The position numbers and the translations under genes were made by a program. A stretch of DNA of 64,000 nucleotides from Thioploca sp. (lineage in GTDB: Bacteria > Pseudomonadota > Gammaproteobacteria > Beggiatoales > Beggiatoaceae). Below the pieces are notes generated by a model. That model was not told the DNA's origin, did no database searches, and worked only from the letters and a program-made list of their open reading frames with translations. Below are positions 10,339 to 50,500 of the stretch, piece after piece. Positions within the stretch are counted from its first letter, which is position 1; each line of letters opens with the position of its first letter. The stretch is taken from contig DAOUSL010000003.1 in NCBI GenBank assembly GCA_030627235.1, forward strand, positions 1-64,000, in the 5' to 3' direction.

Positions 10339-11964
10339 TTATTCTTCTAACTCAATTTCTTCAGCTGTAGCAGATACGAGTTTACCTTCATTAAAATTAA
10401 GTTCTTGCAAAAGATAGGGATTTTCCTCAAATTCTAATTTTTTTAAACTTCCATTGGCTGAAACTAAAAAACCTTTTCCTGTACGTTTCCCATCCTTAAA
10501 GTTACCTTCATAGCGATCACCACCACTGGATATATAAATTCCTTTCCCTGTACGTTTACCATCTAAAAAATCGCCACCATATAATTCACCGTCAATCCAT
10601 TTTAAAGTTCCTTTTCCATGACGTAAACTAGAGTTAAAATCACCTTGATAACGATCTCCACTAGTCCAAATATATAATCCCTGACCAGTACGTTGGTCAT
10701 TCAAATATTCACCAACATAGTTATCACCATTTTTCCATTTGTAGATACCAACTCCATGTCTTTTACCATTTACAAAATCACCCAAATAACGGTCTCCATT
10801 AGCCCAAGTATAAATTCCGTTACCAGTACGTTCATCATTAATATAATCACCATCATAAGAATCACCATTTGGCCAAGTTACCTTGACTCTGCCAACAAGA
10901 TTAATAGTAGATTTATTATTAGTAATTGTTATTTCAGGATCAATATCTGGAATATCTATTTGAGTAGGAATTGAAGGCTGATTGAATTTGGCACTGGTAA
11001 CTACTAATGCCAACATAGCTTTAGGCTTAATATCTATAGAATTTTTATCAATTTCAACTTGTTCTGATTTAACCTGAATATCTTTTTTATCTTCAGATAT
11101 TATCTCATTATCTATCTCAGTTAGCTTAGAGGTATCTTCTTCAATATATTCGGAGTCCATTTCAACCAATTTTTCATCAGTATCAATTTCATCTTCAGAA
11201 ATATCATTTGATATATCAATAAGCTCTTCATTAGATTCAGATAATATTTCATCTTCATACTCTGCTTTGACTAATGTAGAAGTATCTTCTTCAACATGTT
11301 CAAAACCATCATCAATTTTCTCTTCTGAATTATTCGCTATTTCTTCATTGTAGTCTTCTACTTCATCATCTTTCTCAATTGGTTCTTCTGCAAAATCTGT
11401 AGTATCCAATTCATCGTCAGAATCATCATATTTTTCTTCTGTAAAATTATTTTTTTCAGTATTGCTAGAAGAAGCTATTTGCAACTCATATTTTTCGGCA
11501 CTATCTTTTGTAGTTGGACGGTCAGGTGGGAGTTTACTTCTAGTATCTACGTCTATTTCAATCTTAGGTATTTTAGGAGTGTAACTCAATGTTTTTAATT
11601 TACCTTCATCACGTTTCCCATCAGAAAAATCACCTTTAAAACGTTCTCCATTAGTCCAAAAATAACTGCCTTCACCATCCCGTTTATTATCTACATATTC
11701 TCCTTTATAATATTGGTCATTAGCCCAAATATATATTCCCTCACCATCACGTTTTCCTTCAAAAAATTCACCTTTATATCGATCTCCATTTGCCCAAATA
11801 TAAATCCCATCGCCATTACGTTTTCGGCCTTCATAATCACCATAATAACTATCACCATTAGCGAATCTGACATACTTTTTTTCGACTTGTATATCATCGT
11901 TAGCATATAATTTTGTTACCAAAGAAAAAATAAATATTAATAACCAATACTTGGACTTAATCAT
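10339..11964 (-). CDS. Secreted MORN-repeat protein with acidic low-complexity middle
   Basis: Repeated 'YxGDFxxGKRxGxGxYxWxNGDRY' at both ends; D/E-rich centre; signal peptide 'MIKSKYWLLIFIFSLVTKLYA'. Confidence 0.9.
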   Translation of the reverse strand: MIKSKYWLLIFIFSLVTKLYANDDIQVEKKYVRFANGDSYYGDYEGRKRNGDGIYIWANGDRYKGEFFEGKRDGEGIYIWANDQYYKGEYVDNKRDGEGSYFWTNGERFKGDFSDGKRDEGKLKTLSYTPKIPKIEIDVDTRSKLPPDRPTTKDSAEKYELQIASSSNTEKNNFTEEKYDDSDDELDTTDFAEEPIEKDDEVEDYNEEIANNSEEKIDDGFEHVEEDTSTLVKAEYEDEILSESNEELIDISNDISEDEIDTDEKLVEMDSEYIEEDTSKLTEIDNEIISEDKKDIQVKSEQVEIDKNSIDIKPKAMLALVVTSAKFNQPSIPTQIDIPDIDPEITITNNKSTINLVGRVKVTWPNGDSYDGDYINDERTGNGIYTWANGDRYLGDFVNGKRHGVGIYKWKNGDNYVGEYLNDQRTGQGLYIWTSGDRYQGDFNSSLRHGKGTLKWIDGELYGGDFLDGKRTGKGIYISSGGDRYEGNFKDGKRTGKGFLVSANGSLKKLEFEENPYLLQELNFNEGKLVSATAEEIELEE

Positions 11965-15854: not shown

Positions 15855-15880
15855 AGTGTATAGACGAAGTGTCATACACC
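15855..15880. repeat. Family D hairpin repeat (GTGTAT...ATACAC)
   Basis: Reverse complement GGTGTATGACACTTCGTCTATACACT resembles 50683-50708 GGTGTATGACGCTTCGCTTATACACC. Confidence 0.75.
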
Positions 15881-15891
15881 AAAACTAATTG

Positions 15892-16464
15892 TTAGGAAAT
15901 ATCAATTAATGTTTCCAACAATACATGAAAACTATAAGAACGATTAGATTCTTTTGAGTTTCGTTGTTCTAAAGACATAAAAGGAGCTATTTTTTCTGCA
16001 AATCTAGGTTTATTCGCATAATCCTTTTCCCAGCCAGGCACTATTTCTTCGAGAAGATTAGATGGTTTAGGGCCAGAAATGTTATCAATATCACGATATT
16101 TTTCCTTACCTTGAAAAAAATTAGCTCTAAATCTAGGTGAACATTTAGAAATCGCTGCCATATCTCCTAAAAACCAGGCTTCTAATTCATAACAAGCAAT
16201 TCGTATTTTATATTCACAAACACAGTTAACCATTTTATCAGTTAATTTACTTTTCAATTTTATACAGTTTTGGTTGTCTTGATCAAGAATGATTATAATT
16301 TGTTGAGCTCGTTTGGATAGGCTTGGAATTATTTTTTCTAAATTACTAACTAAGTCCTCTTTACCACGATGATGTTTAATTTCAAAATTTTCAAAACCTA
16401 AACGTGGTAGAATACCTTCCAAAAATTTTCGAGTGGAATAATCTTCTACTAAGAAAAATATCAT
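15892..16464 (-). CDS. DUF4276-like (TOPRIM-like) protein, partner of the adjacent AAA ATPase
   Basis: 'FFLVEDYSTRKFLEGIL', 'IIIILDQDNQN', 'RIACYELEAWFLGD' motif pattern; start overlaps the upstream stop. Confidence 0.65.
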   Translation of the reverse strand: MIFFLVEDYSTRKFLEGILPRLGFENFEIKHHRGKEDLVSNLEKIIPSLSKRAQQIIIILDQDNQNCIKLKSKLTDKMVNCVCEYKIRIACYELEAWFLGDMAAISKCSPRFRANFFQGKEKYRDIDNISGPKPSNLLEEIVPGWEKDYANKPRFAEKIAPFMSLEQRNSKESNRSYSFHVLLETLIDIS

Positions 16465-17666
16465 GGATCAATTCCTTTGAAATACTTATGTTGCCACAAC
16501 CAACCTAATTCACAACCATCTTCACACATGTCTACTATCATTTTATCATTTTTTGCCGGAGATATACTACTGATACCATGTTCTTTTTTTACTAAAAATA
16601 ATTCTTTTATATTTAAAGCATCCACAAAATCAGGTGAATGAGTGGAAACAAAAACTTGTCCACCACGTTTAGCATAATCTCGTAATTCTTCAGCTAATTC
16701 TCTTAATAAGGTAGGATATAAGTAATTTTCTGGTTCTTCAATACTCAATAATGGACGAGGAGTTGGATCGTTCAATAAAACTAGATAGGCAAACATTTTA
16801 ATTGTGCCATCAGATGTATATTTAGAAATAAATGGATTAGTAAAATTATCATCTCTAAATTTCAGAAAAATTTGACCAGCTTCATCGATACTAACATCAA
16901 CTTTATTAACACCAGGAACTCGTTTCTGCATTTTTTCTAAAATATTATTGAAAATCTTCCTTTCATATTCATATAGATAACTAGCTACTTGACCAAGATT
17001 GTTACCAGACATAGAAAGTTGGCTATCAGCACCTGTTTCGTTGATTTTACGCATTTCTTCATTTTGCAAATTGGAAACTGACCATTGTTCTAATAAAGTA
17101 CGAAAACTTTTAATGGTTTTATAACGTTCAAATTGGCCTAAACCTTTTAATGCTAAAATGTCTTCCGCACCTAAAGGTTGTTCTTCACGTTCTTCTTCAG
17201 TATTCCATCCTTCACTATCATAATCTTGTTCATTTTTAGTTGCATAACCAATCCCTCTTGAATAATCTAAAAAATGCCAAGACTTACCATGTTGTCCACG
17301 TCGGTATTTTAAAATTTCTTTTTCAATAAATACCTTACCTTTATTAAATCCAATTTTTAAATGGTAAGTAACCAAAGAACCTTTTTCTTTTTGTTCAGAA
17401 TTACGAAACTTAATTTCAAATTCAATAAAATCTTTTTCTGGATCGCTATTACGGGTAATAACTTCCTTAAAACCACCTTCACGATTAATTGCAACTGTTA
17501 CATTTTCTTTTAGACAAGTGGCTAAAAAACTGAAAACTTTAAACAGGGTGGTTTTTCCTGAGCCATTTGCACCTAAAAAAACATTTAATCTTTGTAAATT
17601 AGTTATATGTAAATTTTTATACAATCTAAAGTTTTTTACTTTAATTTGTTCAATTTGGGTTTTCAT
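16461..17666 (-). CDS. AAA family ATPase (AAA_21/OLD-like, SMC-type head)
   Basis: Walker A 'VFLGANGSGKTTLFKV', signature-like region, Walker B 'LLSIEEPENYLYP', 'QVFVSTHSPDFVDAL'. Confidence 0.9.
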   Translation of the reverse strand: MKTQIEQIKVKNFRLYKNLHITNLQRLNVFLGANGSGKTTLFKVFSFLATCLKENVTVAINREGGFKEVITRNSDPEKDFIEFEIKFRNSEQKEKGSLVTYHLKIGFNKGKVFIEKEILKYRRGQHGKSWHFLDYSRGIGYATKNEQDYDSEGWNTEEEREEQPLGAEDILALKGLGQFERYKTIKSFRTLLEQWSVSNLQNEEMRKINETGADSQLSMSGNNLGQVASYLYEYERKIFNNILEKMQKRVPGVNKVDVSIDEAGQIFLKFRDDNFTNPFISKYTSDGTIKMFAYLVLLNDPTPRPLLSIEEPENYLYPTLLRELAEELRDYAKRGGQVFVSTHSPDFVDALNIKELFLVKKEHGISSISPAKNDKMIVDMCEDGCELGWLWQHKYFKGIDP

Positions 17667-17755
17667 GATTTTTAATTTTGCTATTTTAATATAAATTACG
17701 ACTAAAAATTGTTAATAATTACAATAAATTTTAAATTGTTTATTTTTTAATTATC

Positions 17756-18424
17756 TTATTCATTTATCAAATATTCTTCAGTAATAATATATTTTTCAAT
17801 ATTTCCTAATATCTCTTTCAAATAAGAAACAACTTCTTTTTTTATTTTTAAAATATCTTCGACTGTATAATCTTTTCCACAATCGCAAAAAGAAAATACA
17901 CCATGTGCTAGATCATTTCTCTTATTCTTTACGGTTAATAACTCATCTCCATTTTTTGTAATTCTGGCATCTGTTTGATATGAAAAACCATAATTTTTTG
18001 CAAAATCTTTAATTTTTCTTGCATCAAGATTTCCCGAAATAATCTTTTCTGAATCAAAACATTTTGAAACAATATCAATTGAAATATTTTCTATCATTAA
18101 TAAATTATTGATATTACAATCTTTAAAATTTTTAAGTACAATTTTTTTTAATTCTGTCCGAATATCTTCATAAGCTACATTTTTATTATTCAATTCAATA
18201 TATATTTCTTCAATTGCTTTCTTAATAGAGGATTCAGCAAGATTATAAAGCAGTAAAAATCCATTGGCTTTTAATATCTTAATCATTTCTCGATCAATAG
18301 GTTCATATTTTTCAGTATCAGAATAAAATAATTTGGGATTTCTGTTTATTATGTTCTCTAAAAAATTAAAATAGATTTCAATTTCCATCACTCTTCTATC
18401 AAAATCTTGTAAAGTGTCAATCAT
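17756..18424 (-). CDS. HEPN domain protein (MAE_28990/MAE_18760-like), putative RNase
   Basis: Helical protein with 'KNKRNDLAHGVFSF' Rx4H motif; ATGA overlap with the upstream DUF262 gene. Confidence 0.75.
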   Translation of the reverse strand: MIDTLQDFDRRVMEIEIYFNFLENIINRNPKLFYSDTEKYEPIDREMIKILKANGFLLLYNLAESSIKKAIEEIYIELNNKNVAYEDIRTELKKIVLKNFKDCNINNLLMIENISIDIVSKCFDSEKIISGNLDARKIKDFAKNYGFSYQTDARITKNGDELLTVKNKRNDLAHGVFSFCDCGKDYTVEDILKIKKEVVSYLKEILGNIEKYIITEEYLINE

Positions 18425-19491
18425 TGTTTATTATCCAATAATTTATCCCTAACAAATTCAATTCTAGCCTTAACTTTAGGACGAGAATTACTTGCATAAG
18501 ATTGGGTATGACTTTTAAATTCTTCAGAATCTAACCAATTTATTTCAGGAGGAATCAGATCTGGATTTTCTTGTAATGAAAGATGTACACCCACGGATAA
18601 TGCTTCAAAACGCACTCTATATGTAGTAGTTGCTTTTGCAGATTTTTTAAAACCATAGGGAAAATAATTATCAACAAAATCCAACATATTTTCAAAATCT
18701 TTCTGAAGCTGTTTTTTATCAAAATTATCTTTTTTTTCCTGAATATATATGTCTAAAAACTTATTTACACTATGTTTAAATGTAAGATATTTTTCTGAAT
18801 AAGCAAAAAATCTTAAAATTAGTTCTGTAGTTTCTTCTCTATCAGCACGTCTTTTATTGATTGGGCATAATTTAGAAAACTTTTCATTTGTGGCACATTC
18901 AGAAACAAAATCATAAAATTTTCCTGCAAAAACTCCTTTTCTGATTTCCATATCCTTTAAAATATCACTACCAGTATTGATTCTATCAAAGATATCTAGT
19001 CTAACATCTGTGTCTGCTTTTTCAGTCAACTCAATCATTCTTAATGTTTTTCTATTAAATCTTCGTTGGCGAGATAAAATTAAATCATCATAAGTAAATC
19101 CATTTAAGGTTTTTAATTTTTCTAAATTTTCTAAAATTAATTTATTATTCAAAAATGCATCAAGTGTTCGTACTCTTTGTGAACCATCAACTATTTCAAA
19201 ACGCTCACCACAATCAGCTGTAAAAAGATATGGTATAGGTAAACCTAACATAACCGATTCGATAAATCTTGATTGTCTTTTTTTATCCCAAATAAATTCT
19301 CTTTGGTAATCAGGAATAAAAAGTTAATTTTCATCAGTTTTAATATCTTGTGTGTATTTTTGAACAATAATTTCAACTGGATATTCTTTTGTATCATAGT
19401 CTACTGTTTTTTGTTCTTTCAATATTTCTTCTTCTGCTGCATTTTTTTCGTCAGTAGTAATTATTTCTTTCTGAATTTTTTTAGAAACCAT
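18421..19491 (-). pseudogene. DUF262 (ParB-like/GmrS-like) protein gene interrupted by in-frame TAA
   Basis: ATG at 19491 preceded by a GAGAG-type RBS; same frame reads '...QDIKTDEN*LFIPDYQREFIWDKKRQSRFIESVMLGLPIPYLF...FEIVDGSQRVRTLDAFL'; stop at 19326-19324. Confidence 0.8.
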
Positions 19492-19503
19492 AAAAATCAT
19501 CTC

Positions 19504-20661
19504 TCATTTTAAAGTGTTATTATTAATAAGTGAATTAACTATCATAGCTATTATTTTAGGTGGAACTGCATTGGCAATCATATTATGTAAATCACCTCTA
19601 AGGGTTACCATACTAAAATCAAAAAAATCAGAAAATCCTTGGATTCTAGCTGCTTCATGTGGCGTAATGACTCTTTTTCGTAAAGGATGAATATATCGTC
19701 CCTGGCCCATTGAACCAAAACCACTGGTAATAGTTTGTGCTGGTTTATCCCAATGTAAACGTCCATAACAAGATTTATAGCTGTGAGTTTTATTTTTATG
19801 ACAATTCGGTCTCATAGAATCAGGTAAATTATATAAATCATGTTTAAACAAATAATCAATACGTTCTTGATTTTTAGTTGTTGAAGGTGTAAAAAAGATA
19901 CCTTTTTTTGATTTATGTTCATCTATCAAATCATTAATATAATCAGATAAAGGAACAACATTTAAATATTTGAATGATGCTAATGATGAAAAATTAAAAT
20001 TGTCATTTAAGACAGCTACTTGAATATGTCTTTTTCTAGTCTGTGGTAGCCCAAATTCAGCAATATTAATAATCTGAGATTCAATTTGATAACCCAATTT
20101 TTTTAAAAAATATTCACTTTTTTTAACTACTTTATTTTTATCATGTATAACAGTTGAAACATTTTCTATAATTGCTATTTTCGGTTTAACAATCTCAATA
20201 AAACGAATTACATTTAAATATAAATTATTTCTTGGGTCATTTCTTCGTGTATAATTATTTAGATCAGAGTGGCCTTGACAAGGTGGACCAGCTACTAAAA
20301 TATCCAAATTTGAATATTTATTTTGTAAAATAGTTTCATTAGTATTTAGTTTTTCCCCTATACTACATGAAACTAATTCATTAATATCACTGTTAGAAAT
20401 TGATTTATCATTAAGTTCAAAGTTTTTTTGATAAACCGTTAAAGCTGATTTGTTGTTATCTAAAGCTAATTTTATATCTATAGAAATATTATTTTTTCTT
20501 AATGCTTCCCAAATACCTAAAGTCATTCCACCACATCCACAAAACAAATCTACAATAGAAAAAGATTTATTCTGTGTTGGCAAAAATACTGGTTTTATAG
20601 ATTTACGAATCCAGTTTAAATTACAAAGATTATCTGATATTAAATTTTGATAGTTTGGCAT
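19504..20661 (-). CDS. DNA (cytosine-5-)-methyltransferase
   Basis: 'SIVDLFCGCGGMTLG', 'ILVAGPPCQGHSDLN', 'IAIIENVSTV', 'QTRKRHIQVAV'. Confidence 0.95.
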   Translation of the reverse strand: MPNYQNLISDNLCNLNWIRKSIKPVFLPTQNKSFSIVDLFCGCGGMTLGIWEALRKNNISIDIKLALDNNKSALTVYQKNFELNDKSISNSDINELVSCSIGEKLNTNETILQNKYSNLDILVAGPPCQGHSDLNNYTRRNDPRNNLYLNVIRFIEIVKPKIAIIENVSTVIHDKNKVVKKSEYFLKKLGYQIESQIINIAEFGLPQTRKRHIQVAVLNDNFNFSSLASFKYLNVVPLSDYINDLIDEHKSKKGIFFTPSTTKNQERIDYLFKHDLYNLPDSMRPNCHKNKTHSYKSCYGRLHWDKPAQTITSGFGSMGQGRYIHPLRKRVITPHEAARIQGFSDFFDFSMVTLRGDLHNMIANAVPPKIIAMIVNSLINNNTLK

Positions 20662-20672
20662 TAATTAATATT

Positions 20673-22163
20673 TTATTTATTAACCTTCTGCACAGATGGA
20701 TCTCGCCGTATTGTGCGTAAAAAAGCTATAACTTGTAAGATTAAAATCAAGCTAAATGGAATTGCTCCTGAGATTGCCATGGCTTTAGCAATTGTAACTG
20801 AACCAGTAAATAAAGTGCCTGCCGTGATTATTCCAATCAATACACCCCAAGTTAATTTAAGCTTAGTAGATGGATTTAAATTACCTTTAGAAGTCATCAT
20901 ACTGACTACGAAAGTTCCTGAATCAGCACTAGTAACAAGGAATACAAAAATTAAAATTAATGTCAATCCACTTAGTATTTCAGACATAGGAAACCAAGTA
21001 AATAATGCAAATAATGCTTTGGAAACGTCTTCTAATACTAAATCGGCCATTCCACCACCTCCAAACATTTCAATATAAATGGCTGAACCTCCAAATGCGG
21101 CAAACCATAGAATGGAAAATACGGTAGGAACTAAAATTACCCCAATCACAAATTCTCGGATAGTGCGACCACGACTAATCCTAGCGATGAATATTCCTAC
21201 AAATGGTCCCCACGCTAACCACCAAATCAAATAAGTCAAAGTCCATCCTGAAGTCCAACTGGATAGTTCTTTATAAGGATAAAGTTTGAAAGACATGTTG
21301 ATCAATTGACTGAAATAGTCTCCAATTGAAGTTATGAAAACTTCCATGATAAAGCGGGTTGGTCCAGCTAGAATAATTATCATTAAGATTGATATAGCAA
21401 TTATCATATTTATATTACTAAGAATTTTAATACCTTTATCCAATCCAGTGCTAGCTGAAATTAAAAACATTACAGTCATCAAACCTAAAATTATGAGGCT
21501 TACTCCATCAGTAGCTGGTATATTAAATACCTCACCCAATCCAGCTCTGACTTGTAATACTCCCATAGCTAAAGAACCGGCTAATCCAAAAATTACTGCC
21601 AATACCCCAATTATATCTGCGCTGTGACATACAATTGGATATTTGCAACCAAATTCACTTCGTATAGGGCTAGAAATTAATGGTGGAGCGTCTTTACGAA
21701 AACTGAAATAAGCGATAACTAATGCACAGATAGCATAAATTGACCAAGCGTGTAATCCCCAATGTAAATTAGTAATTACCATTGCGAAACGAGCTGCTTC
21801 CGCAGTTTTACCTTCCATACCAGGTGGAGATAAATAATGAAACATCGGTTCAGCAACGCCCCAAAAAATTAACCCTGCTCCCATCCCAGCGGCAAATAAC
21901 ATAGATAACCATGAAATATTAGAAAATTCAGGTCTGTCTTCATCTTTTCCTAAGCGAATATTAGCATATGGCCCAAATGCCATATAGGCTCCTAAAATTA
22001 AAAAACTAGTACATAAAGCTAAAAAGAACCAATCGAGAGTTTTTAATGCAAAACCCGTCAGTCCCAGTGCTGCACTAGCCATAGCATCAGGTGCTACAAC
22101 ACCCCAAATTCCAATAATACTACATAAGGCAATTGATATTAAAAAAACTAAATTATTTTTCAT
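20673..22163 (-). CDS. BCCT family transporter
   Basis: 12-TM BCCT pattern 'GMGAGLIFWGVAEPMFHY', 'WTLTYLIWWLAWGPFVGIFIARISRGRTIREF'. Confidence 0.95.
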   Translation of the reverse strand: MKNNLVFLISIALCSIIGIWGVVAPDAMASAALGLTGFALKTLDWFFLALCTSFLILGAYMAFGPYANIRLGKDEDRPEFSNISWLSMLFAAGMGAGLIFWGVAEPMFHYLSPPGMEGKTAEAARFAMVITNLHWGLHAWSIYAICALVIAYFSFRKDAPPLISSPIRSEFGCKYPIVCHSADIIGVLAVIFGLAGSLAMGVLQVRAGLGEVFNIPATDGVSLIILGLMTVMFLISASTGLDKGIKILSNINMIIAISILMIIILAGPTRFIMEVFITSIGDYFSQLINMSFKLYPYKELSSWTSGWTLTYLIWWLAWGPFVGIFIARISRGRTIREFVIGVILVPTVFSILWFAAFGGSAIYIEMFGGGGMADLVLEDVSKALFALFTWFPMSEILSGLTLILIFVFLVTSADSGTFVVSMMTSKGNLNPSTKLKLTWGVLIGIITAGTLFTGSVTIAKAMAISGAIPFSLILILQVIAFLRTIRRDPSVQKVNK

Positions 22164-43003: not shown

Positions 43004-46000
43004 TTGAAAATGTTTATTAAAACTATTATAAGAATGGTAATTCTGCTCTTATTAACAGTAAATGTATATGCAGAAACTGAATTTTGTAGCACTACCACTC
43101 CTACCACTCCTACCACTATCCCAAATAACAATGCTACCGGCATAACTGATACTATCAATATTAGCGATGCTGGTAATATAACAGATTTAAAAATAGTGCT
43201 TGATATTAGCCATGATAAAGTTAGTGAGCTAAATGTTAATCTAACACATGATAGTACCGTTATAAATTTGCTTGATCATCCTGGTGCTTTAGATGACTCT
43301 GCTGATGGTTGCGAAGGCCAAAATATTTCTAACTTAACGATAGCTGATGATGGAACTAAATCATTGGAAACTGATTGTACCCTAAATGAGCCAGCATATA
43401 CCAATAGCACTATTTATACACCAAATGATTCATTATCTAATTTCACTGGTGGAGATATTACTGGTGATTGGGTATTGGAGGTTAGTGATAACAATGTTTT
43501 TAATACTGCTGATGGAACTTTAAATAGTTGGTGTATAAAATATGAGCGTGAATCAAAAGTAATTTTAGATCCTAAGCCACCATTTGCAACTCTGACTTTT
43601 GGAGGAGTAGATATTGGAAAATCTGGTGATACGCCAGCTACTTTAACTGGTACTGGTGATAAAATTGTAATTTATTCAGCTGATTTCACTGGTGCTAATA
43701 CAAGTGAATTCACCTTAACTTCACATAATATTATTAATGATTTTGAGATGGAAATTCCAGCTAATACTACGAAAACTTTTACTATTGAATGTGCGCCAAC
43801 TCAAATCGGTACTAGAACAGCAAATTTTAATTTATATACTAATATTCCTAGTTATACAACAATAACTTATCCATTAACATGTGAAGCAAAAGGTGGAGCA
43901 TATAGCGATAATGGCACTAGCCCGATGGATTTTGGCTTAGTTGAAATCACAACCACCAGTATAGAAAAAACCTTTGATATAACTGCTGGTGCTGGAGCAA
44001 ATTTAGAATTAAGTTTTACTAAGAGTGGTTCAAATTTTAGCATTACTCAATTTCCTACTAGTCCTCTCCTAGTTGGCAATACTGGTACAGTTGGAATCAC
44101 TTGTACTCCAAATAAAGTTGGTAGTAGTACTGGTAAATTAAAAATAACAACTAACGATCCTGCTAATGCTCTAATTACATATAATCTAGAATGTACTGGT
44201 GAAGGAGTTGTTTTTAATTCAACGCCAGTTGAAGAAGGAGAAGAATTAGAATTTGGTACTGCTAAACCAGGTAAAGGTGGTACTAGTAGAACTTTAAATA
44301 TTGGCAATGGCGGTAATATAGACTTGGATATAGTTAATATGTCAATCACTGGTACTAATGTTGCCTTGTTTAGCTTCTCCCCATCAGCAACATCCTTAAC
44401 TTTAGAGTTTGGGCTTGATTATGATATTGACATAACATGTAATCCAACAACTCTTGGAACTTTTTCAGCTAGATTAGAAATACCACATACTGATCCCCAT
44501 TTGAAACCCAACACTTTAACTTATGATTTGTCCTGTACTGGTACTGACAATCTAACAGAACCTTTATATTATTCCATCCCTGCTCCTGGAAATACAATCA
44601 ATGTTGGTAGCACAGTAGCAGCATCTTCAACAACCGATGGTTTAACAACTTACGACTTAAATATTAAAGAAAGAGGCAATGCTGATTTAGAAGTTGATTC
44701 TTATACCATAACTGGAATTAATGCTAGTGAATTTACAATTACTAATAGTTTTCCAATAATTATTCCTGAATCCCAAGATGATACTGGCACAGATATTACT
44801 ATTGAATGTAGGCCGCAAGTTAATGGAGTTCGTACTGCTGTTTTAAATTTTGTGACCAATGATCCTACCAATTTTCCTGCTCCTAGTTATACTTTAGAAT
44901 GTACTGGATTAGTAGCCGGTTATGATTCTACTCCTATATCTCCAAGTGGAACTATAAATATTGGAACTAAACCAATTAATCAAACAATTAGCTATAATTT
45001 ACAAGTAAAAGAAGTTGGTGATGCTGACTTGATTGTCAATTTGGCTGATGACCCATTAACTGGTTCTGAATCTGCTTATTTTGCTGTTGATGAAAGTTTC
45101 TTCCCATTTACTATACCAAATGGTAACAGTAGTAAAAATATAGTTATTGACTGTTCGCCAGTACTTATAGGCTTACATCCAGCTCAATTAAATTTAACTA
45201 CTAACGATCCAGCTCAACCAGAAATAAGTTATCCTTTAGAATGTAATGGTGAAGAAGCAATTGGCCCAGCCTTTGGTTCTTTCCCACCACCATATGAAGA
45301 TATGGATTTTGGTAATACTCCATTAGAAACTTATGTGGAAATGACTTTAGTAATTAAGGAATTTGGTAGTACTAAACTTAACTTATATTCAGCTATTATT
45401 GATGGTGCTGATGCTAGTGATTTTAGTATTGAAAGTATTACTCAAAATGGAATCCAAAAAATCCTTCCAAGTTTTATCGGTAATGGAGATGCTAACTTTG
45501 AAATAGTAATACGTTGTACACCTTCAGCAGAAAAAAAACATTTTGCTACTTTACATATAGATCATAATGATCGATTTAAACCTAACTTTACTTACTTACC
45601 TTATCCTTATCCTTTAATTTGTACAGGAACCCCAGAATTAATCCCAGTCTATACTTCCTATCCTGACATCAATAGCACCATAGACTTTGGTAACATACTA
45701 GAAAATAGTACGGTACTCACTAAGACTATGACTATTACTGAAGCTGGTAATACTGACTTAGAAATAACTTCAGCAACTCTAACTGGTGATAGTGAATTCA
45801 CTTTAATCAGTCCAACTTTTCCTATAACAATTGCCGACGGTGGCGATGCTGAAATAGTGACTTTGGAATGTAATCCAATAAATGATGGAACTTATACCGC
45901 TCAATTGGTATTTACTACTAATGATCCGATTAATCCAAATCCAAGTTATGACTTAACCTGTGTTGGTAATCCTAGATATCCAATTTACAGCTCTACTCCA

Positions 46001-49000
46001 GATATAGATAGTTCTATAAACTTCGGTTCTGATTTAATAAATAGAAGTAGTACTGAAATAATTATTATTACAGAATCTGGTACAGCTGATTTAAAGGTAA
46101 ATTCTGCTTCGATAACTGGTAGTAGTGAATTTTCTATAATCGATCCTGAATTTCCATTTACCATAACGGATGATAGTGGTGATTCTCAGACTATAACTTT
46201 ACAATGTAATCGAAATAAAAGTGGAACTCATACTGCTCAATTAAATATTGTTACTAATGATCCAAACCAAGCAACTGTAACTTATAATTTAAAATGTATT
46301 AGCGATTCACCCGAAGGTGATGTAACCATAATTTTGCCATCTACTTTAAATTTAACTGTAAATTTTTCTGGGGATGGTACTGGTAAAGTAAAAAGTAATA
46401 TAGCTGGAATTAATTGTACTAGCAATTGTTCGTCTGAATATGAAGCTGGAAACAAAATAGGACTCACAGCAACACCTGATTCTGATTCCATATTTGAACG
46501 TTGGGGTGGCAATAGTGATTGTACTGATGCTGAAGTATTTTTGACTGGTAATATAACTTGTACTGCTTATTTTACTTTAAAAAATAAACCAGTTGAACCA
46601 ATTGAACCAGAAATTCCAGAAGTTCCAGAACAAGAAATTATAGTTGAGCAACCAGTAATAAAACCAAATTGTACGCAAGCAACTGAAATTTTATATGTAA
46701 ATAATGCTGCTAATGGTTATGACAGTGGATTAAATTGGCAAGATGCTTTTATTGATTTGCAAGATGCTTTGGAAGCAGCTAGAAATACCTGTCCTAATAT
46801 TAAACAGATTTGGATAGCTAAAGGAACTTATTATCCAACTACTGATGATAATCGGAATATAAGTTTTGCTTTAGTAAATAGAGTGAAAATTTATGGTGGT
46901 TTTACTGGTGATGAAGCAGGATTATCAGAACAAGACTGTAGTAAAAATTTAACTATTCTGAGTGGCAATATTGGGATTAAAAATAATAATACTGATAATA
47001 GTCAGCATGTTATAACTGCTAATCAAGTTGATAGAAATACCTTGCTAAATTGCTTAAGCATAATAGCTGGTAACACGGATGAATGTGGCGGTGGAATGTT
47101 TAACGACAATGCTAGTCCAACTTTGCAATATATATCTTTCAGTAATAATCAAGCTAAATATGGTGCTGGTTTATGTAATATTAATGGTAGTAATCCGTTA
47201 GTACAAATGAGTTCTATCAATAATAATAATGCTATCAAAGAAGGTGGTGGCATCTATAATAAAACTAGTAATCCAGTTATATGCCAAGTGTTTATTCAAG
47301 CAAATACTGCTACAGATGGAGCTGGAATTTTCAATATAGAGCAATCATCTCCTGTTTTAAAACAAGCCAATATTACAGATAATAATGCTACTCAATTTGG
47401 TGGTGGTATATTTAATAATACTAGTACCCCACTGATAACTCACAGTATTATTAGCAATAATAAAGCTGGACAAGGAGCTGGAATAGTGAATCTGGATAGT
47501 AATCCATTGATTAGCCATCTGGTTCTGACTGCTAATAATTCTGAAGCAATGTTGAATGATAATAGTAGTCCATTAATTACGCAATCTACTATCGCTTTTA
47601 ATCAAACTGGAATTGTGAGTTATTCTAGCTTTCCAACGATAAATAACAGTATTTTATGGGATACTACTCCGATTGTTAATAAGGAAAACAGCACTACTAC
47701 AATCACTTATTCCATCGTTAAAAATGGTTGGGATGGTAAAGGTAATAAATCTTCTGACCCATTATTGACTAAAAAACCTAATAATACTTTGCAAACCATG
47801 GCGGATAATGTGCATTTACAACCGCAATCCCAAGCTATTGATGCTGGTAATAATGATTTAGTTCCACAATATTTAGCTAGTTCTGAATGTGATATTTTTG
47901 CCGATAATAATGGCATTGTGGATTTAGATTTTAGTGGTAAGACACGGATATTAGATGGTAATTCTGATGGTATTGATATTGTAGATATAGGAGTTCATGA
48001 AGCTAATTTTTCTTTTACCTATATGCTTTCTGTCGAATTGACTGGGACAGGTTCTGGTTCAGTTACATCCGATAAATTTGGAATAAATTGTGGTGCTGAT
48101 TGCTATCATAACTATTCCAGTGGGATTGATGTGTTATTAACTACACAAGCTAATCCGGATTCAATTTTCAATAACTGGAGTGGAGATTGTAGCAGTAATG
48201 GCAAAGTTAAAATGATTGGAATCAAAAAATGCCAAGCAAAATTTGACCTAATTACAACAGAAAGTTATCTACCTGAATCAGTAGAGGATATGATTTGTTC
48301 ATCTGGCAATGTGATTAATACTACTTGTAATTTCAGTTGGGATTCTGCTGAAGATATTTTGATTGGAGAAAAAGGCAATGTTTCCAATTTAGTTATCATG
48401 ACTGACGTTAAAAATAAAGGTAGGATGGCTAATGCCGAAATAACTAAAGGCAATACAGTTAGTGGTGGTATTCTTAGCGGTTATATAAAGAACGATGGTA
48501 CTTTAACTGATTTTGAGTTTTTAGGTGCAGAAATTAAAGGTGGAATGTTAGCTGGAGATATTTTTAATAATAGTGAAGTTGATGGAATTATTATAGATGT
48601 GTTGTTAGCTCCTAATACTCGTATTACTGGTGGCAGATTAGGTGGTAAAATCATTGGTAATGCTAGTGTACCAGCAATTTTAGAAAATTTAAGTATCGCT
48701 GATGGAAGTTATTTGAGCAATGTAATTATCGGTAATCATGTAATTTCTGAAGGTGATGTTGAATATGGCTCTGGTATCCAATTCTATTTTGATGCTAAAC
48801 CAGTTCCGTTTGAAAAAACGATAGTCAATGATGAGACAATAAAAGACCTCACTTTCCGAGGTAAAAATTTATCTGGTGGTACTTTGGATGGTGATATTAA
48901 AATTACCATGGGTGGAACTATTAATAATGTAAAATTGACTGCTGGAACTAGAATAACAGGTGGTAATTTAAAAGGTAGAATTATTGGTAATGCTAAAAAA

Positions 49001-50500
49001 CCAGCGATATTAACCAACCTCAGCATTGTTGCTGGTAGCTATTTAGAAAATGTGATTATTGATAAAAATGTTTACTTACCAGATGATGTTGAGCTAGGGC
49101 CTAACGTTACTACGTATAAAGAACCAGAAATTGAAATTTTACCGACAGCTTTATTGATTGATAAAAATTTAAATGTGTATGATTTATTTGACTCTAGTTT
49201 TACTCCTAAAATTAAATCTGGCAAATTTACTTATCCTAATCATACTATGTTGACTTTTGAAGAAGCTAAGAATTTAGAATTATCAACAACTATTAAAGTT
49301 TTGCCGGATGATATAGGTAAGTCGGCTGATATGTTGGTTATTGTGGAGCATCAGGACAGAGATAACCCAGAACGCAATTCTGTTAAAGTGCTTGATCCAC
49401 CAAAATGGAATAATTGGGATAATGATATTTTGAATTTAAAATCAATGCAACATTATCAACAACTACCATTAAATTTCAAATTACCAATTTATACTGGTGG
49501 TTTAAATGATATTGCAGAAAAAGTATCTTTCATGTCTAATGGTCATCGATTATTTTTAACTGATGTTTCTGGAGAGTATAATTTTTATATTGGTTATCGT
49601 TTACCAGATAAATCAATTGTTTATAATGGTCAAGAACCACAGAATTTTTTTGTAAATACCGCTCCTGAATCTTGTATTTTATATGCTTTACACGATGATA
49701 AATTAAATGATTCTCAAGTAGTTACAATTGATTTAAGTGCTGGTTTGGAAAGTAGTATGAAGCCGTTAGGTCCAATGAGATATGGACGGGATATGGAAGG
49801 TTTAGCTATTCATCCTGATAATCCTGATTTACTATTTGCTAGTGCCGGTAATCATGCTGAAGTAGATGGTAAGGAACTAGATGGTTATTTATACACTATT
49901 CATCGTGAAACCGGCGAAATGAAAGTTATTGGACCAACTGGATTTGAAAAAACTGCTGGTTTAGCTTTCAATCCGGTTGATAGAACTTTATGGGCTTGGG
50001 GTCGCAATGAAGGTGGAACGGATAAATGGCGAGGAAATGATAGTAATTGGGAAAGAGAAAATGGAATTACAACCGATAAATGGACTGGCTTAATTACAAT
50101 CAATACTACAACTGGTAGAGGTACTCCAGTAAAACAGATGGATTATAAACTTCATGATATGGGCGGTTTAGCTTGGAGTTTTAATGGTAAGAAAATTTAT
50201 GCTTCTGGGGATGAACATTTATGGGTTTATGATCTAGCAACTCAAATATTTGAAATTGCTTGTGATTTTGTGGATAATGGTCGGATTGAAGGACTTGATA
50301 CTCAACCTAATGGATTCTTGTTGGTAGGAATAGATAAGAAAGGTAAAAATGGTCGGGAAACTCGAATTCTTGCTTATGATCCAGTGGAATGTAAAATAAT
50401 ACATAAACAGGTCTATAAAGGTTTGAAGTACGATGACATTGAATCAATAGTATGGCCAGCCACCGAATGTAATGATACTTCTTGGTTGTCGGATCATTGA
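43004..50500 (+). CDS. Giant secreted modular protein (P-domain, ~8 ASH-like repeats, InlB-like repeats, beta-helix, GGxLxGxI repeats, C-terminal propeller-like region)
   Basis: 2498-aa ORF with signal peptide; repeat units ending 'Y.L.C.G'; beta-helix 'ILYVNNAANGYDSGLNWQDAFIDLQDALEAA'; domain reading in findings. Confidence 0.9.
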   Translation: MKMFIKTIIRMVILLLLTVNVYAETEFCSTTTPTTPTTIPNNNATGITDTINISDAGNITDLKIVLDISHDKVSELNVNLTHDSTVINLLDHPGALDDSADGCEGQNISNLTIADDGTKSLETDCTLNEPAYTNSTIYTPNDSLSNFTGGDITGDWVLEVSDNNVFNTADGTLNSWCIKYERESKVILDPKPPFATLTFGGVDIGKSGDTPATLTGTGDKIVIYSADFTGANTSEFTLTSHNIINDFEMEIPANTTKTFTIECAPTQIGTRTANFNLYTNIPSYTTITYPLTCEAKGGAYSDNGTSPMDFGLVEITTTSIEKTFDITAGAGANLELSFTKSGSNFSITQFPTSPLLVGNTGTVGITCTPNKVGSSTGKLKITTNDPANALITYNLECTGEGVVFNSTPVEEGEELEFGTAKPGKGGTSRTLNIGNGGNIDLDIVNMSITGTNVALFSFSPSATSLTLEFGLDYDIDITCNPTTLGTFSARLEIPHTDPHLKPNTLTYDLSCTGTDNLTEPLYYSIPAPGNTINVGSTVAASSTTDGLTTYDLNIKERGNADLEVDSYTITGINASEFTITNSFPIIIPESQDDTGTDITIECRPQVNGVRTAVLNFVTNDPTNFPAPSYTLECTGLVAGYDSTPISPSGTINIGTKPINQTISYNLQVKEVGDADLIVNLADDPLTGSESAYFAVDESFFPFTIPNGNSSKNIVIDCSPVLIGLHPAQLNLTTNDPAQPEISYPLECNGEEAIGPAFGSFPPPYEDMDFGNTPLETYVEMTLVIKEFGSTKLNLYSAIIDGADASDFSIESITQNGIQKILPSFIGNGDANFEIVIRCTPSAEKKHFATLHIDHNDRFKPNFTYLPYPYPLICTGTPELIPVYTSYPDINSTIDFGNILENSTVLTKTMTITEAGNTDLEITSATLTGDSEFTLISPTFPITIADGGDAEIVTLECNPINDGTYTAQLVFTTNDPINPNPSYDLTCVGNPRYPIYSSTPDIDSSINFGSDLINRSSTEIIIITESGTADLKVNSASITGSSEFSIIDPEFPFTITDDSGDSQTITLQCNRNKSGTHTAQLNIVTNDPNQATVTYNLKCISDSPEGDVTIILPSTLNLTVNFSGDGTGKVKSNIAGINCTSNCSSEYEAGNKIGLTATPDSDSIFERWGGNSDCTDAEVFLTGNITCTAYFTLKNKPVEPIEPEIPEVPEQEIIVEQPVIKPNCTQATEILYVNNAANGYDSGLNWQDAFIDLQDALEAARNTCPNIKQIWIAKGTYYPTTDDNRNISFALVNRVKIYGGFTGDEAGLSEQDCSKNLTILSGNIGIKNNNTDNSQHVITANQVDRNTLLNCLSIIAGNTDECGGGMFNDNASPTLQYISFSNNQAKYGAGLCNINGSNPLVQMSSINNNNAIKEGGGIYNKTSNPVICQVFIQANTATDGAGIFNIEQSSPVLKQANITDNNATQFGGGIFNNTSTPLITHSIISNNKAGQGAGIVNLDSNPLISHLVLTANNSEAMLNDNSSPLITQSTIAFNQTGIVSYSSFPTINNSILWDTTPIVNKENSTTTITYSIVKNGWDGKGNKSSDPLLTKKPNNTLQTMADNVHLQPQSQAIDAGNNDLVPQYLASSECDIFADNNGIVDLDFSGKTRILDGNSDGIDIVDIGVHEANFSFTYMLSVELTGTGSGSVTSDKFGINCGADCYHNYSSGIDVLLTTQANPDSIFNNWSGDCSSNGKVKMIGIKKCQAKFDLITTESYLPESVEDMICSSGNVINTTCNFSWDSAEDILIGEKGNVSNLVIMTDVKNKGRMANAEITKGNTVSGGILSGYIKNDGTLTDFEFLGAEIKGGMLAGDIFNNSEVDGIIIDVLLAPNTRITGGRLGGKIIGNASVPAILENLSIADGSYLSNVIIGNHVISEGDVEYGSGIQFYFDAKPVPFEKTIVNDETIKDLTFRGKNLSGGTLDGDIKITMGGTINNVKLTAGTRITGGNLKGRIIGNAKKPAILTNLSIVAGSYLENVIIDKNVYLPDDVELGPNVTTYKEPEIEILPTALLIDKNLNVYDLFDSSFTPKIKSGKFTYPNHTMLTFEEAKNLELSTTIKVLPDDIGKSADMLVIVEHQDRDNPERNSVKVLDPPKWNNWDNDILNLKSMQHYQQLPLNFKLPIYTGGLNDIAEKVSFMSNGHRLFLTDVSGEYNFYIGYRLPDKSIVYNGQEPQNFFVNTAPESCILYALHDDKLNDSQVVTIDLSAGLESSMKPLGPMRYGRDMEGLAIHPDNPDLLFASAGNHAEVDGKELDGYLYTIHRETGEMKVIGPTGFEKTAGLAFNPVDRTLWAWGRNEGGTDKWRGNDSNWERENGITTDKWTGLITINTTTGRGTPVKQMDYKLHDMGGLAWSFNGKKIYASGDEHLWVYDLATQIFEIACDFVDNGRIEGLDTQPNGFLLVGIDKKGKNGRETRILAYDPVECKIIHKQVYKGLKYDDIESIVWPATECNDTSWLSDH

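Follow-up and report, generated by a model that had tools for sequence, protein, structure and literature searches.

A DNA methyltransferase, a DUF262 protein and a predicted HEPN RNase form a widespread candidate anti-virus cassette that lies beside a separate HEC-01 pair in Thioploca

Results

We describe a cassette of three genes, encoding a C5-cytosine DNA methyltransferase (MTase), a DUF262 protein and a HEPN protein of the MAE_28990 family, that occur together across phages, plasmids, cyanobacteria and Beggiatoa-type bacteria. This co-occurrence supports well the view that the trio is a functional unit, and the trio is a widespread candidate anti-virus cassette. In the stretch of Thioploca sp. 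DNA analysed here (64,000 nucleotides of contig DAOUSL010000003.1, hereafter the window), the trio is followed by genes for an AAA ATPase and a DUF4276 protein, a separate, PARIS-like candidate defence pair that is merely next door. We put at an even chance the reading of the locus as two adjacent anti-mobile-element modules, the first a restriction-modification (R-M)-like cassette with a predicted RNase effector, which DUF262 would activate on sensing invading DNA, and the second a stand-alone HEC-01 pair.

Open reading frame (ORF) analysis of the window places the five genes on the minus strand (Table 1), at the positions given in a preliminary description made from the sequence alone. That description had five same-strand genes between a BCCT transporter and a GH3 hydrolase, and the ORF coordinates bear out both this order and its gaps and overlaps. 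The MTase stop and the DUF262 ATG are separated by 12 nt, an ATGA overlap joins DUF262 to HEPN and another joins AAA to DUF4276, and 89 nt lie between HEPN and the AAA gene. Upstream, the BCCT transporter gene has its stop at 20673, 11 nt ahead of the MTase start, and downstream the GH3 hydrolase gene starts at 15875, 16 nt past DUF4276. The island is slightly more AT-rich (GC 0.26-0.30) than the DNA around it (mostly 0.29-0.37). A promoter and terminator scan gave no signal exceeding that of shuffles. A clean empty site was not seen in relatives, where the BCCT gene, the GH3 gene and the HEPN locus are on separate contigs. Elsewhere in the window, a 2,498-aa ORF (43004-50500) encodes Ig-like domains of the HYDIN/ASH type together with a divergent repeat of the InlB type, and its product may be a large protein that is secreted or exposed at the surface. 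We also observed a MORN-repeat protein (10339-11964) whose gene contains 69/138-bp tandem repeats.

Table 1. Genes of the two modules in the window.
Gene product	Position	Strand	Remarks
C5-cytosine DNA methyltransferase (MTase)	19504..20661	-	385 aa, intact; PF00145, PADLOC MTase_II
DUF262/GmrSD_N protein (ParB/Srx-like)	18421..19491	-	356 codons, in-frame TAA at codon 56; PF03235
HEPN protein, MAE_28990 family	17756..18424	-	222 aa, intact; PF18737
ABC/SMC-type AAA ATPase, candidate system HEC-01, separate module	16461..17666	-	PADLOC HEC-01
DUF4276 protein, HEC-01 partner of the AAA gene	15892..16464	-	PF14103, PADLOC HEC-01

Pfam agrees with the earlier domain calls for all five proteins, and the HMM check of the HEPN and DUF4276 families led to no reassignment (PF18737 HEPN_MAE_28990, 3e-35; PF14103, 3e-9). 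The HEPN identity of the third protein is based on the PF18737 match together with E64, R169, N170 and H174, all invariant in the HEPN alignment; its R-x4-H motif reads RNDLAH. HEPN proteins with this motif have been predicted to be metal-independent RNases (PMC3710099). A dN/dS of 0.13 between the window gene and its relative in genome G004 indicates purifying selection, and the AlphaFold2 model (pLDDT 93.5) is mainly helical; searched against the PDB, the model returned no significant structure match. The closest named relatives are from Candidatus Halobeggiatoa and another Thiotrichaceae genome. PADLOC holds no model matching the window HEPN.

HEPN relatives were gathered from phages, plasmids, viral contigs, cyanobacteria, Bacteroidetes, Acidobacteria and Beggiatoa-type genomes. 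The census comprises 137 loci, 135 of which were kept for labelling after short duplicate fetches had been replaced. DUF262 lies immediately upstream of HEPN in every labelled locus (135/135), and a C5 MTase stands beside the pair in 75. Another 34 have a full-length DUF262 and enough flank with no MTase beside it, 16 have a short DUF262 (about 175 aa) and no MTase, and 10 are undecided. Farther than 2.5 kb out, the fetched flanks contain only two more C5 MTase genes. Distances correlate strongly between MTase and DUF262 (Mantel r 0.84 when the window-type pair is left out) and between DUF262 and HEPN (r 0.88), shared ancestry being included in both values. The preliminary description had combined MTase, DUF262 and HEPN into one unit, with which the census agrees; the DNA-targeting role that it gave to DUF262 and the RNA-cleaving role that it gave to HEPN are predicted ones.

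Loci with an MTase cluster on the HEPN tree, where about 15 changes are needed to account for their distribution. An MTase of the usual family was found elsewhere in the genome in none of the 32 tested genomes with full-length MTase-less loci and in 4 of 12 genomes with short-DUF262 loci. We rejected the idea that loss of the DUF262 C-terminal half tracks MTase loss: the raw count (an MTase beside 0/16 short forms; Fisher 8e-8) is striking, yet independent pairs on the tree are not significant. DUF262 is cut to its N-terminal half in a cyanobacterial clade (L083, L092, L095, L117, L123, L125, L064, L069 and L073). The cyanobacterial MTase-less loci have housekeeping-type neighbours in common, presumably acnB and clpB, which suggests that these DUF262-HEPN loci are kept vertically. 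Separately, unusual arrays of short DUF262, HEPN, short DUF262 and long DUF262, with no MTase, were observed in Beggiatoa-type genomes (L162, 59-3302; L165, 7220-10204).

The window MTase (Pfam PF00145, 6e-54; PADLOC MTase_II, 6e-98) has the PPCQ, ENV and QxRxR motifs, and its nearest PDB sequences include the DNMT1, HaeIII and HhaI enzymes. Clustering and alignment of the 75 locus MTases assign 71 to one family and 2 to fragments, while the window enzyme and that of viral locus L044 (51% identical to each other) make up a second family; the window MTase is about 28% identical to the usual one. That DUF262-HEPN pairs are found with two C5 MTase families implies that methylation was joined to the pair at least twice. 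In the window type the MTase gene lies upstream and reads in the direction of the pair; more often it is downstream and convergent. Locus L169 compares with the window at 79% identity for DUF262 and 76% for HEPN but only 28% for the MTase; the L169 MTase instead shares 75% identity with the enzymes of L166 and L168, two loci at which DUF262 is 43-44% identical to that of L169. Such MTase exchange between loci shows the modularity of the cassette.

Related pairs adjoin other kinds of modification enzymes, as seen in two places. The genome of the window itself contains a second DUF262-HEPN pair (G000:C219; L185, 3413-7561), with a HEPN of the PF18735 type as in PD-T4-2, directly preceding a truncated EcoRV-like restriction endonuclease (REase) and a D12 adenine MTase, and on a Tabrizicola plasmid a DNA methyltransferase lies ahead of DUF262-HEPN. 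Two other plasmid copies of DUF262-HEPN have no modification enzyme annotated nearby.

The DUF262 gene of the window has an in-frame TAA at 19324-19326, at which the tests proposed in the preliminary description hinted while its main text was silent. The longest intact piece, from an internal ATG at 19251, is 276 aa and is without the conserved PxYQRxxxW motif; PF03235 matches it at 1.8e-12 and an intact relative at 4.8e-26. Since the close relatives in G004 (L161) and G056 (L169) are uninterrupted at codon 56 and the part past the stop has a dN/dS of about 0.2, the stop is either recent, which is probable, or a sequencing or assembly error. Because of it, the window copy of module 1 is probably inactive or works less well. 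In G002, of the same genus, an MTase 80% identical but interrupted is followed by DUF262 and HEPN remnants (L171, 1-1944; G002:C70), so cassette decay is not unique to the window.

In the AlphaFold2 model of the intact L161 DUF262 protein (pLDDT 89, pTM 0.60), the N-terminal half is alpha/beta and the C-terminal half consists of helices throughout. Among PDB structures, nucleotide-bound ParB matches best and BrxU ranks ninth (E 2.9e-3); the similarity is modest, with TM values of about 0.22-0.25 by query length, and the N-terminal fold is predicted to be ParB-like. Within the C-terminal half, no domain that would read DNA was recognised. As for the cognate site-specific endonuclease of a classical type II R-M system, Pfam finds no REase family among the five window genes, and PADLOC REase_II model PDLC03418 matches the intact DUF262 relative at 1.9e-11. 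Pfam finds no DUF1524 in the five window proteins or in the intact DUF262 relative.

Twenty viral contigs carry the trio between the P2 portal and gpA. An annotated E. coli example (NZ_AP027254.1), within a P2-type prophage, reads portal, DUF262, HEPN, convergent MTase and replication endonuclease, and the interval there consists of exactly three genes, the trio. The study that describes the gpA-gpQ interval of P2 as an anti-phage hotspot, and in which several of the systems were validated, does not mention the trio in its main text (Rousset et al., PMC9122126). Two E. coli forms of the trio have matches in 16 of 5,426 complete E. coli genomes, and with these forms the trio is readily testable.

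Discussion

We give somewhat less than an even chance to an R-M system in which restriction falls on RNA: DNA lacking the cognate 5-methylcytosine would be sensed by a ParB/GmrS-like NTPase, which would turn on a HEPN RNase. In the reading of the locus to which we give an even chance, the C5 MTase would mark resident DNA, and DUF262 would sense invading, most simply unmarked, DNA and then switch on HEPN, whose cutting of RNA would lead to arrest of the cell or of the phage. The coupling of the genes is shown; we infer DNA sensing, methyl-guarding, RNA cleavage and abortive outcome alike. If methylation does control an RNase through DUF262, the cassette would connect a DNA mark to RNA cleavage in a simple way, and 'restriction' would take on a wider sense.

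Methyl-guarding is the leading reading, although unproven. The preliminary description had proposed a methylation-guarded system; the MTase beside 75 loci is in line with this, but the MTase-less loci mean that the guard is not universal. With 34 full-length loci devoid of an MTase, and the usual MTase not found elsewhere in any of the 32 of their genomes that were tested, methylation is not always needed, and an obligatory methyl guard is hard to square with the many cyanobacterial loci that have no MTase. The near-identical DUF262-HEPN pairs of the window and L169, with MTases only 28% identical, are also a poor fit to a sensor matched to a single MTase, unless the two enzymes mark the same site.

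The same 34 loci would suit a type IV-like or modification-sensing abortive system of the PD-T4-2 kind. DUF262 would then respond to modified phage DNA or to some other cue, and the MTase would be an accessory, altering self or carrier DNA to another end, for example to hide the carrier from host restriction. The DUF262 proteins GmrSD and BrxU act on modified cytosine, and phage carriers could profit from methylation of their own. We nevertheless hold this to be unlikely, given that one MTase family co-varies with DUF262; that the MTase is beside none of the 16 short-DUF262 loci further suggests a tie to full-length DUF262, albeit not a significant one given phylogeny.

A last resort like that of PrrC, where DUF262, with or without the MTase, silences HEPN until a phage anti-restriction factor or DNA damage frees it and methylation is not the direct trigger, strikes us as rather unlikely. 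PrrC is a HEPN RNase silenced by the EcoprrI R-M complex, and the analogy has been extended to R-M-linked HEPN genes (Anantharaman et al., 2013; PMC3710099); the EcoRV-like REase fragment and adenine MTase that follow the second DUF262-HEPN pair of the genome would fit in. No REase family or other restriction complex that could be inhibited is recognised in the trio, however, and an intact HEPN beside a broken DUF262, as in the window, would be odd if DUF262 were the silencer.

The broken DUF262 and intact HEPN equally oppose a toxin-antitoxin pair, with HEPN as toxin, DUF262 as antitoxin and an independent MTase, which would moreover leave the MTase linkage in 75 loci unexplained. We consider it improbable, even though the tight DUF262-HEPN coupling with 4-nt overlaps, the existence of short DUF262 forms and the cyanobacterial MTase-less copies with common housekeeping neighbours, as if vertically kept, would all be expected of such a pair.

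The AAA/DUF4276 pair is not to be counted in the trio. PADLOC assigns both the AAA protein (HEC-01, 8e-154; Pfam PF13304, 5e-30) and the DUF4276 protein (HEC-01, 4e-33) to candidate system HEC-01, and the two hallmarks of that system, an AAA ATPase and an adjacent DUF4276-type partner, are both present, with a 4-nt overlap. The TOPRIM-like acidic motifs VED, LDQD and ELEAW are largely kept in the DUF4276 alignment. Among the 137 loci, the window, counted with its own re-fetched copies, is the only place where AAA adjoins HEPN; in seven close relatives an AAA 79-86% identical occurs with its DUF4276 partner and no HEPN in the fetched stretches, and in G004 the pair and the HEPN locus are on different contigs. 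The occurrence of the pair alone, together with the PADLOC assignment, marks module 2 as an independent HEC-01 pair. The preliminary description was right to see a second, AAA/TOPRIM-like module, but the census gives no sign that it is attached, and in none of its other loci do the five genes co-occur. A single five-gene system, which the shared strand and short gaps might have implied, is thus contradicted by the census, which resolves two modules, and we regard it as very improbable.

Comparison with known systems

The preliminary description could name no described system of this composition. This holds for named systems, the trio not being one in PADLOC; the trio itself was, however, listed in 2013, when Table 1 of Anantharaman et al. 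placed the MAE_28990 HEPN 'in operon with a ParB nuclease and DNA methylase genes' (PMC3710099). The window has all three features of that operon, namely the same HEPN family, a ParB/DUF262-type partner (here with its stop at codon 56) and a DNA methylase. The 2013 record is one table cell, with no named system, census or test; the window copy has a minority MTase and an interrupted DUF262. In the literature searched (most subscription papers and bioRxiv preprints being outside the search), the HEPN family name appears only in that paper and no description of the trio as a tested system was found.

PD-T4-2 (Vassallo et al., 2022) likewise consists of DUF262 and HEPN, and this two-gene system blocks T4 (PMC10952713, PMC9519451). 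The DUF262 match spans most of the length (PD-T4-2_A, 5e-25 for the window piece and 8.5e-35 for the intact relative), although NsnA scores higher. The PD-T4-2 HEPN belongs to another family, PF18735 (PMC10952713), and no MTase is described for the system. PD-T4-2_B does not match the window HEPN at E up to 1 and only weakly matches 2 of 12 members of the HEPN alignment (best 0.0074).

Menshen is NsnABC, and the DUF262 protein of the trio is of the NsnA type (1e-56, intact relative). Menshen has an OLD-type nuclease, whereas the DUF262 partner in the trio is HEPN; no NsnC match is among the PADLOC matches listed for the five proteins, and the AAA gene matches NsnB at only 7e-24 against 8e-154 for HEC-01. 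GmrSD, BrxU and SspE have the DUF262 domain and the DGxQR motif in common with the trio, and BrxU is among the structure matches, but the trio is without their DUF1524 HNH nuclease domain. PrrC with EcoprrI is also a HEPN RNase linked to DNA modification genes; the trio differs in having no HsdRMS, and in a sensor that is DUF262 rather than an ABC ATPase fused to HEPN. For module 2, both genes match HEC-01 best. In PARIS, AriB is a DUF4435 protein, while the window partner is DUF4276 (3e-9, against 6e-4 for DUF4435, under the cut-off; HEC-01 4e-33, against 0.0015 for AriB). The trio is therefore of a kind already known, though uncharacterised, and the window copy is a variant of it with a minority-family MTase and an interrupted DUF262.
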